A program made the position numbers and the translations under genes. The notes under the pieces are model-generated. The model saw nothing but the letters and a program-made list of their open reading frames with translations, was not told where the DNA came from and ran no database searches. 37,567 nucleotides of DNA from an uncultured Thomasclavelia sp. (GTDB lineage: Bacteria > Bacillota_I > Bacilli_A > Erysipelotrichales > Coprobacillaceae): NCBI RefSeq assembly GCF_944324745.1, contig NZ_CALUXO010000042.1:1-37567 (forward strand), read 5' to 3'. The first letter of the stretch is position 1; each line of letters begins with the position of its first letter. This document shows positions 17,416 through 29,995 of this stretch, piece after piece.

Positions 17416-18036
17416 TTAATCGATATGATCAATCGCCTGGTATTTACATACTTCTTGACACTTTCCACAATGTAAACAATGATCTTGAACAATAGTTACT
17501 CTTTCATCGTTAATGTTTATACAATTTTGAGGACAAACGGTTACACACTTTAAACATTTAACACACTGTTGATTAACAAAATATCCTTGTTCCTTTTTCT
17601 CTTGATTTACTGAAAAACTTTGACGATAAATTGGTTTTTGACTTAAATCAAAATATTCTAGATCATATTGATAAATTTCAAATACTTCTAAAACATCACG
17701 AGCTATTTCATCAGGATAGATTTCTTGCATATAAGGATTTTCTTGAAAGATCAAAGCTAATTTATCATGACCGATATTTTTAACTTTTCCTTGTAAGGAA
17801 ATTGCAATTGATGACATAGTATCTTCGCCTTTTAACCCCGTTAAAGCTACATAATGATTATTCATCAATCGCTGATAAAATGATTTGCCCCGAGCTGTTA
17901 AAAAATATAAACTCTCATTTTCTAATAACATTAAATCAATCGCACAAGTATAAACTTTTCCTTGAAGATCACTAGTAGCCATAATTACAGTATGAATATC
18001 CTGTTGTAATATTTGTAATATTTTTCCTCTTTCCAT
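17416..18036 (-). CDS. FMN-binding split-barrel / 2[4Fe-4S] ferredoxin fusion
   Basis: A 206-residue two-domain redox protein. Residues 1-130 resemble the pyridoxamine-5'-phosphate-oxidase-like FMN split barrel (TSDLQGKVYTCAIDLM, LYFLTARGKSFYQRL). Residues 155-200 carry two complete ferredoxin motifs: Cys158/161/164/168 followed by Pro, and Cys187/190/193/197. Fusions like this occur in anaerobes and probably pass electrons between ferredoxin-type clusters and a flavin; the substrate is unknown. It starts 16 nt after the transporter gene and should share its Rrf2-type promoter. GGGGTGA gives the ribosome site. Confidence 0.85.
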   Translation of the reverse strand: MERGKILQILQQDIHTVIMATSDLQGKVYTCAIDLMLLENESLYFLTARGKSFYQRLMNNHYVALTGLKGEDTMSSIAISLQGKVKNIGHDKLALIFQENPYMQEIYPDEIARDVLEVFEIYQYDLEYFDLSQKPIYRQSFSVNQEKKEQGYFVNQQCVKCLKCVTVCPQNCININDERVTIVQDHCLHCGKCQEVCKYQAIDHID

Positions 18037-18052
18037 TTCTTATCACCCCTTA

Positions 18053-19188
18053 TTAAATTTTAAACTTTTGATAAATAAACTGATCGGCTAATAACATAAT
18101 TATCAAAGTGATTGCGGCTAAGTAAAAGATTGCTTGATACCCTAAATATTGACCAACATAGCCCCAAACTACAGCTCCAACACCATAACCAATATCAACC
18201 CCACAATAGTAGATAGAAGTCGCAAAGGCAAATTGTGATGGTAAAACAGTCTGAATAATTCTGAAATTAAAGATTGGAAATAAAATTCCTGAAGCTAAAC
18301 CATATGGAATTGCCAATAAATATAACTGTAACTTTGTTTGAACTAAAGCGATGCTAAAAATGCTAACTGCCAGTACCAATGTTAAAATCAAACTAAGTTT
18401 TCTAATGCCTAACCAGTTTTGCACTTTACGAGAGAAAAATCGGGAAAAAAAGTTACGATTGCCGTAATGGTAAAAAATAATCCAATATTACCTAAATCTA
18501 AAATACGAGCAAAAGATGTTAAAAAACTATTAACATCTCCTTGAGATAAAGTTCCTAGAAAAAAGACACTGGCAATAATAATTTCCCGATATGACTGCTG
18601 CTTCTTATTAGCAGTAGCTAATTGATTATTGTTTTTTAATAAAAATGATAAAGTTAGAATTGTCATCGAAATAACAAACAAGACAATAAATAATGTTAAA
18701 AAGTTACTATAGTCCTGTCCTAATATTTGTAAAGCTATTGTAGGACTAATGGCATTGGCAATAGTATTTGCTGAAGAAGTAAAACCAACCCCTTCACTAA
18801 GCCTTGAAGCTGGAACATATTCATTAGAAATAGCTGTTGCACAAGTTAAACTAATTCCAAAACCAAATCCATGCAAAATTCTAAATAAGATAAAACTAAT
18901 AATTTCACCTGCTTTACAATAGCCGGCAGCGGCAATAACCGTTAAAACCAAACCAGAAATTAATAGTGTCTTATTATTAAACTTTTCATTCAATTTTTTA
19001 ATAAAAACTCGTGCAACTAGTGCAGCAATGGTAAATGCAGTAATCATATAACCACCGATAACGCTTGATGAAGTTAACACTGTTCCATAAATAGCCATAA
19101 CTGAGTTCAATAAAACATAGCCCATATTTACCCCAAATACTAATAACAGGGAAAAAAGATATTTTTTAGTCCATAGTTTTTCGTTCAT
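18053..19188 (-). pseudogene. MFS transporter split by a frameshift in an A7/T7 tract
   Basis: Two adjacent frames encode one major-facilitator protein of about 380 residues. The first (18409-19188) carries helices 1-7 with the MFS loop RVFIKKLNEKFNNK near 60-73 and ends in an off-frame tail after VTFF. The second (18053-18424) carries helices 8-12 from NWLGIRKLSL. Reading T8 in place of the T7 run (A7 at 18445-18451, plus strand) joins them as FFSRFFSRKVQNW, an intact loop. The substrate is unknown; the fold resembles drug or small-molecule exporters. The cause may be mutation, slipped-strand phase variation or a base-calling error. The promoter carries two TGTAA-N9-TTACA operators. Confidence 0.8.
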
Positions 19189-19205: not shown

Positions 19206-19266
19206 TGTAACTGTTATTATTACATTAATAATATACTACCATCCAATTGTAATGTCAATAGTTACA
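19206..19266 (-). promoter_or_regulatory. Promoter of the MFS/ferredoxin operon with two Rrf2-type operators
   Basis: A perfect -35 TTGACA (19253-19258), 17-nt spacer and -10 TATATT (19230-19235). One TGTAA-N9-TTACA palindrome (19248-19266) covers the -35. A second (19206-19224) lies around or just after the transcription start. This placement is that of a repressor. The rrf2 promoter at 29119-29157 has the same arrangement. Confidence 0.8.
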
Positions 19267-28656: not shown

Positions 28657-29097
28657 TTATTGATTATTTGCCACATAATATCTTGTATCATCTAATACTT
28701 CTTTTAATGTAATTGAAGCTAATTCATCTTCCATTGCTTTTTGAACTCTAGACAATTTATCATCAAGAATATTATGGATGTTTTTACCAACTGGACAATT
28801 GGTGTTAGGATTTTCATGGAAATGAAATAACTGATTATTATCAATACTATCAACAGCTCTAAAAATATCCAATAAATTAATTTGATCTAATTCTTTAGCA
28901 ATCGTTGTACCACCAGTTCCCCGCTGAACATTAATTAAATTATTTTTCTTTAATGAAGATAAGATCTTACGGATAATGACTGGATTGACATTAATGCTGT
29001 CAGCTAAAAAATCACTGGTAATTTTATGATCCTTGCCAAAAGTATCGATACAAGCAAAAATATGTACTGCAATTGTAAAACGACTGGAAATTTGCAT
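28657..29097 (-). CDS. Rrf2-family transcriptional regulator
   Basis: A 146-residue Rrf2 protein with an N-terminal winged helix (MQISSRFTIAVHIFA, recognition helix NPVIIRKILSSLKKNNL, wing RGTGGTTIAK) and a dimer helix. IscR and NsrR carry three clustered cysteines for an Fe-S centre. Here only Cys101, in TNCPVGKNIH, lies in that region, so a cluster of that type is unlikely; a thiol switch or YwnA-like mode fits better. It has its own promoter with an overlapping palindrome and is probably autoregulated. The same palindrome precedes the MFS/ferredoxin operon. Confidence 0.9.
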   Translation of the reverse strand: MQISSRFTIAVHIFACIDTFGKDHKITSDFLADSINVNPVIIRKILSSLKKNNLINVQRGTGGTTIAKELDQINLLDIFRAVDSIDNNQLFHFHENPNTNCPVGKNIHNILDDKLSRVQKAMEDELASITLKEVLDDTRYYVANNQ

Positions 29098-29118: not shown

Positions 29119-29157
29119 ATTTTATTCGGTTTTAATTGTAATGTCAATGATTACAAT
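29119..29157 (-). promoter_or_regulatory. rrf2 promoter with overlapping operator
   Basis: -35 TTGACA (29142-29147), 17-nt spacer, -10 TAAAAT (29119-29124). A perfect inverted repeat, ATTGTAAT-N7-ATTACAAT (29135-29157), contains the -35. This is the placement of an autorepressor site. Confidence 0.8.
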
Positions 29158-29215: not shown

Positions 29216-29995
29216 TTAAAGTGAGGGTTCATCAATTGTTCCCAGTAACACTTTTAATACATTTGGAATCTTTAGATCTTTACTACCACAGCCCCAACCA
29301 ATCTTAGACACCTTCATTGCAGGCATAATACCAAAAGATTGAGCTAATTCAGCAATAATTGCTGCTCCGGTAGGGGTTACTAATTCGGTATCGATGTCAA
29401 TCTGTCTAAACTTTACTTCACTGGCCGCAAAGATTTCTGAAGTAGCTGGCACTGGTACGCTAATTAAGCCATGGGCACATTCTATAAATCCATAACCATC
29501 ATTTACAACACTGCTAATTATTTTATCAGGTTTAATTTTACTAATTAAAATAGCCGTTCCTATGATATCTACAATTGAATCTACGGCCCCTACTTCATGA
29601 AAATGAACATTTTCTAATGGTTCATCGTGAACTTTACTTTCAGCTAAAGCAACTCGTAAGAAAATGCGTTTGGCCAAACTTTTAGCTTCTTCATCAATTT
29701 GAGCCTGATCAATAATAGCATTGACATCAGCTAAATTACGATGATGATGTCCATGATCGTGATGATGGTGGTGATGATCATGGTCGTGATGATGTTCATG
29801 TTCTAAATGAACATCAACATAAGTTCCAGTAATGCCGTTTTTCTTAGTCTTTGAAATATGAAGATGATATCCAGGAACATTTAATTTTTGTAATTCCTGT
29901 TGTAAAAAATCGGGCTCAGCAACCAACTCACTTAATGCACCTAAGGTCATATTACCACTTATTCCACTGCTGCAATCAAAATATAAAACTTTCAT
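29216..29995 (-). CDS. larC: LarC N-terminal half only (nickel-pincer cofactor synthesis)
   Basis: 259 residues matching LarC1. It opens with LYFDCSSGISGNMTLGAL and has a metal-binding histidine-rich loop (15 His within 66-85), then HFHEVGAVDSIVDIIG and the closing GWGCGSKDLKIPNVLKVLLG. LarC is a CTP-dependent nickel insertase. In Lactiplantibacillus plantarum the full protein is made by frameshifting from larC1 into larC2. Here the frame stops at the domain boundary, followed within 20 nt by a terminator, and no LarC2 sequence is seen in any frame. The larB stop and this start overlap as TAATG, with GGAGG just before. Confidence 0.88.
   Translation of the reverse strand: MKVLYFDCSSGISGNMTLGALSELVAEPDFLQQELQKLNVPGYHLHISKTKKNGITGTYVDVHLEHEHHHDHDHHHHHHDHGHHHRNLADVNAIIDQAQIDEEAKSLAKRIFLRVALAESKVHDEPLENVHFHEVGAVDSIVDIIGTAILISKIKPDKIISSVVNDGYGFIECAHGLISVPVPATSEIFAASEVKFRQIDIDTELVTPTGAAIIAELAQSFGIMPAMKVSKIGWGCGSKDLKIPNVLKVLLGTIDEPSL

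Follow-up and report, generated by a model that had tools for sequence, protein, structure and literature searches.

A frameshifted MFS transporter gene in a putative Rrf2 regulon of an uncultured Thomasclavelia species

The split transporter gene

The window, by which we mean the whole stretch of 37,567 nucleotides analysed here from the Thomasclavelia genome G000, carries on its minus strand (19188 to 18053) a gene for an MFS transporter of 12 helices, whose reading frame changes at a run of seven T residues (T7; A7 on the plus strand, 18445..18451) that the first frame reads as T TTT TTT. The N-terminal ORF (18409..19188, minus strand) encodes 259 aa, comprising helices 1-8 and an out-of-frame tail, and is matched by the MFS_1 profile (PF07690) with E=3.8e-19 and 69.3 bits against a cut-off of 33.4. 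The C-terminal ORF (18053..18424, minus strand) encodes 123 aa from a GTG, comprising helices 9-12, and is matched by the same profile above the same cut-off (E=1.1e-12, 48 bits); its open frame starts further upstream, at 18487, and no ribosome site is visible by eye ahead of the GTG at 18424. The two ORFs correspond to successive stretches, residues 1-252 and 246-376, of the intact orthologue in genome G008 (locus L004). Thus, the window gene holds its 12 helices in two frames and not as a single chain.

Past T7 the first frame reads PDFSLVKCKTG and then a stop, and the other frame reads SRFFSRKVQNW. The SR motif of this second frame is shared by 12 of the 13 other homologues, namely those of genomes G002, G008 and G016 and nine of the ten distant ones, the tenth having TR in its place. 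Because SR is conserved in the second frame, we assign the shift to T7 and not to the T5 that follows closely; this, together with the two MFS_1 ORFs, agrees with the preliminary description, which had put the frame change at the A7 tract. That description had also divided the protein into helices 1-7 and 8-12, a split corrected by hydropathy and an alignment with the lactate transporter 6g9x, which locate the break behind helix 8, where the loop to helix 9 begins, and thus give an 8+4 arrangement. Hydropathy of the G008 protein shows seven segments before the motif and three after it, helices 5 and 11 falling under the cut-off and being assigned by eye, and the junction motif aligns to a region of 6g9x that is probably its helix 8-9 loop. 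A search of solved structures with the single sequence returned no match at 1e-5.

Promoter, operators and neighbouring genes

Upstream of the transporter gene lies a promoter of the form TTGACA-17-TATATT (19230..19258, minus strand) with two operators on the same strand: operator 1, TGTAACTATTGACATTACA (19248..19266), overlaps the -35 box and operator 2, TGTAATAATAACAGTTACA (19206..19224), lies past the -10 box. Both are of the type TGTAA-N9-TTACA, and the pair is conserved at the MFS promoter in all four orthologues, in keeping with an earlier remark that the promoter is elaborate. The same operator, as TGTAATCATTGACATTACA (29137..29155, minus strand), stands ahead of a gene for an Rrf2-family regulator (28657..29097, minus strand; Rrf2 E=1.8e-32), whose product is 81% identical to the Rrf2 whose gene immediately precedes the MFS gene in G002. 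From these sequence features, this Rrf2 is likely to be the regulator of the transporter. The operator also precedes a unit on contig C80 of G000 (L108 4442-6868) that encodes a NAD-binding protein, a sirtuin (L108 5235-6107) and, adjoining the sirtuin gene, a macrodomain protein (L108 6104-6868), these three names having been assigned by reading the sequences and not by profile search. Sites of the regulon share the consensus TGTAAY-NN-TTGACATTACA, and the operator pattern occurs in six of the nine genomes of the genus, with 16 sites against two for the reversed control. A putative Rrf2 regulon would thus link the MFS/ferredoxin unit, the Rrf2 gene and the sirtuin/macrodomain unit. We regard it as a more interesting by-product of the analysis than the frameshift, and membership of the transporter in it, alongside the sirtuin/macrodomain operon, would explain the elaborate promoter.

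Downstream of the transporter, the next gene of its unit (17416..18036, minus strand) is intact and combines two [4Fe-4S] motifs with a PNPOx-like flavin domain, for which the match to PF01243 scores below the gathering score. The transporter, flavin/ferredoxin and SIR2-like sirtuin genes are contiguous in G002, G008 and G016, accompanied in G002 and G016 by a macrodomain gene; in G000 the unit is split over two contigs. By tblastn, the sirtuin and macrodomain pair also occurs in G002, G016, G004, G007 and G006. The transporter is the variable member of the unit, since in G004, which has genes for the Rrf2, the ferredoxin protein, the macrodomain protein and the sirtuin, its place is occupied by a different gene. 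An NTF2-like gene lies between the Rrf2 and ferredoxin genes of G004 (L071 9553-10377), and a related gene in G008 is also preceded by the operator. The window further contains a LarC-like nickel-insertion gene (29216-29995, minus strand), which spans positions 1-235 of the 375 in its profile and then runs into a terminator-like stretch without a second half. Lactobacilli join the two halves of this nickel-insertion (LarC) protein by frameshifting.

Orthologues and the age of the break

Close orthologues, at 59-71% identity, are present in four of 43 genomes of the family (three of nine in the genus and one of 34 in the rest of the family); the transporter gene is thus accessory in the genus. 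In an order-wide sample of 315 genomes there were 12 matches at 1e-40, and the eight besides the close orthologues had 29-34% identity. Samples of the phylum (2/392 genomes) and the class (2/395) were matched both times by G000 and G011, a broader contig collection added two loci with 29-33% identity to the transporter, and no orthologue was found in viral contigs. As these wider samples added none, the comparison is limited to the four close orthologues. A mobile or plasmid-borne resistance gene was considered and rejected: 27 plasmid records matched, all at less than 60% identity, the ten listed being at 25-29%.

The orthologues of G008 (379 aa) and G016 (390 aa) are intact, each in a single frame, and neither has an equivalent of the T7 tract at the junction. 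That of G002, 71% identical to the G000 protein, is likewise out of frame and in the same direction; its frame change occurs at AGA TTTTTT CAA, 12 nt beyond the position of the G000 tract. The two breaks are separate events, since SR sits in the first frame in G002 and in the second in G000. A fixed A7 shared by all relatives, raised beforehand as an outcome that would speak against a recent event, is contradicted by these two intact relatives and by the third, broken at a different tract.

The C-terminal part of the G000 protein is 67.7% identical to that of G008 and its N-terminal part 66.5% (Fisher p=0.91), so the part beyond the break is no more diverged than the part before it, as expected of a recent mutation, one of the three options first offered. 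The loss in G000 is accordingly either very recent or no loss at all. For G002 the values are 55.6% and 69.4%, a difference with p=0.011 that is one of six comparisons and uncorrected. The C-terminal frame of G000 is open to its end, and against G002 its changes fall mostly on third codon positions (38, 15 and 68 at the first, second and third). The initial view that nothing else in the gene has decayed holds for this open, undiverged frame and fails for two substitutions private to G000: G148S and A218D, the latter placing an acid in helix 7. The other 13 aligned homologues have G or C at 148 and A, S or G at 218. Private changes in the N-terminal part number 13 in G000, 7 in G002, 18 in G008 and 30 in G016. 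For the C-terminal part, a tree of the four species differs in topology from that of the N-terminal part, on too few residues for any conclusion. The two substitutions suggest relaxed constraint, and the G000 break looks recent with a hint of such relaxation.

Explanations of the frameshift and known systems

We favour, at a probability of roughly 0.58, a recent slippage frameshift that inactivated a dispensable MFS transporter, with the same gene lost independently in G002. Slippage in the T run, which fits as the site since it is the longest homopolymer in the gene, would have put the gene out of frame recently, leaving a stub of eight helices, with the last four untranslated or poorly translated. 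In the sister species G002 the same gene would have been lost independently at the next T-run. The transporter product would be non-functional, with the downstream flavin/ferredoxin gene and the operator-promoter region staying intact. Here we take the DNA to have been read correctly, the change to have become fixed in the strain and the protein to be dead, all three being inferences. No selected tract needs to be invoked, since resampling of codons at the usage of the G000 sample (5000 trials) readily gives tracts of at least eight, in 79% of trials over the whole gene and in 31% when the junction alone is considered. The case looks like ordinary gene loss through slippage more than like a special switch.

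What weighs against this explanation is that a purely random process would seldom put frameshifts within 12 nt of each other in two species. Credible breaks other than that of the transporter, picked by eye, number three in G000 (281 kb; two in L049, one in L065) and about 3-4 in G002 (314 kb; L068, L074, L099 and perhaps L067 9527), or around 1.5 per 100 kb of sample; the underlying frame-change scans list many ordinary gene overlaps, from which the credible cases were chosen by eye, and a stricter coding-potential scan missed the window's own transporter break. At such a rate, the chance of a second break in the 1.15-kb transporter gene of G002 is about 1-2%, and at that particular one of its five tracts of at least six about 0.3%, both being rough, after-the-fact figures from candidates picked by eye. 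Rough as they are, these low odds point to repeated loss under weak selection, or to a contingency locus, more than to chance alone. In the transporter cluster of G002 an aldo-keto reductase gene (L068 about 1006-1916) has its frame broken at an A8 and is intact in G000, which would fit decay of the gene cluster in G002. A GNAT-like acetyltransferase gene beside the intact transporter of G008 (L069 4861-5425) also has its frame broken at an A8.

The recurrence of breaks at A8 tracts in G002 and G008 is what an error-prone platform would give, raising the question of whether the true tract in G000 is in frame and the gene intact. Homopolymers are where such errors fall and the downstream frame in G000 is undiverged, but we consider a sequencing or assembly error unlikely overall. 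The G000 sample contains 16 A/T tracts of 8-10 within intact coding frames (15 without one antisense frame, as judged by eye), although 11 of the 16, the antisense one included, lie in the single AT-rich stretch L062 and few outside it. Breaks at tracts in G000 number this one and one possible case at an A9 in L049, the two others not being at long homopolymers; intact A/T tracts of this class number 36 in G002 and 9 in G008. Systematic miscalling of long tracts is not supported by the count of intact in-frame tracts, and an error would leave G148S and A218D unexplained.

A tract that reversibly gains and loses a base, turning the transporter on and off, is a less probable account. The length of T7 (18445-18451) does set the frame from within the gene, the second half is otherwise intact, and in a second species the gene is likewise off, at a tract close by. 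A/T tracts of at least eight are indeed mutable, about 12% of such loci being mutated in Salmonella enterica (PMC8538453). The T7 tract, however, is short, its length is that predicted by codon usage, and it is absent from G008 and G016; in neither length nor conservation is there a sign of selection for it, and the slippage switching offered as one option at the outset is accordingly not supported. Switching is possible, the G002 parallel being the one positive indication of it. A more specific proposal strikes us as improbable: a sirtuin/macrodomain stress regulon under Rrf2 control would have the transporter as a contingency gene, turned off in two species or more when T-runs at the junction of helices 8 and 9 lose register, with on and off states that are reversible in the population.

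Rescue of the broken gene, whether by -1 ribosomal slippage on T TTT TTT, by transcriptional slippage or by restart at the GTG at 18424, is very unlikely. The tract gives U UUU UUU, a -1 slippery heptamer, in the right register, and a -1 shift is what the G000 and G002 genes would both need. The 77 nt from the tract onward show no special folding, 192 of 200 shuffles folding at least as well (z 1.6), nor does a 126-nt stretch (198 of 200; z 1.9), and no Shine-Dalgarno-like stimulator was seen by eye upstream of the tract. The shift site is not conserved either, G002 shifting at another tract and G008 and G016 being plainly in frame; programmed -1 frameshifting was thus rejected despite the heptamer. 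Restart is disfavoured by the missing ribosome site at the GTG. Frameshifted genes are reported to be kept undegraded in Blochmannia (PMC3017870), which speaks for rescue; a transcriptome-wide study found insertions in transcription to be rare and none that restored a frame (PMC5574713). An old pseudogene, which G148S and A218D might suggest and which had been discounted from the start, is scarcely credible given a C-terminal frame open to its end, its mostly third-position changes relative to G002 and the intact operators and promoter.

Taken alone, the transporter frameshift adds another case to the homopolymer frameshifts of AT-rich genomes. It gains weight from the independent break of the same accessory transporter in a sister species and from the promoter, which ties it to the sirtuin/macrodomain regulon. 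If populations proved to be mixed, the regulon would have a switchable transport arm; if they did not, the transporter would be seen to be in the course of loss and the rest of the regulon kept.

The favoured slippage loss resembles the tract frameshifts of Blochmannia (PMC3017870) and those at Salmonella A/T tracts of eight or more (PMC8538453), in that a one-base change in an A/T run strikes a gene that is nearly undegraded and that related species are hit in the same gene; a table in the latter source includes an MFS transporter pseudogene with an A/T tract. In contrast to those cases, the present genome is of a free-living type (2.76 Mb, about 30% G+C in the sample), the tract is shorter (7) and the case is known from its DNA sequence. 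With the contingency genes of homopolymer phase variation it shares a tract inside the coding region and two readable halves, whereas the tract here is short and not conserved. Lastly, the position of the MFS and flavin/ferredoxin genes beside a SIR2-like gene in G002, G008 and G016, the operator that these units share in G000 and the adjoining sirtuin and macrodomain genes recall the SirTM/Zn-macrodomain operons (PMC4518038, PMC11490716). The words Rrf2, pyridoxamine and ferredoxin are absent from the main text of these two papers, and the MFS matches displayed from them refer to a fusion protein named Mfs1. Unlike in those operons, the ORFs listed nearby include, as judged by eye, no GcvH-L or LplA2, and there is instead an MFS transporter, a PNPOx/ferredoxin protein and an Rrf2 regulator.
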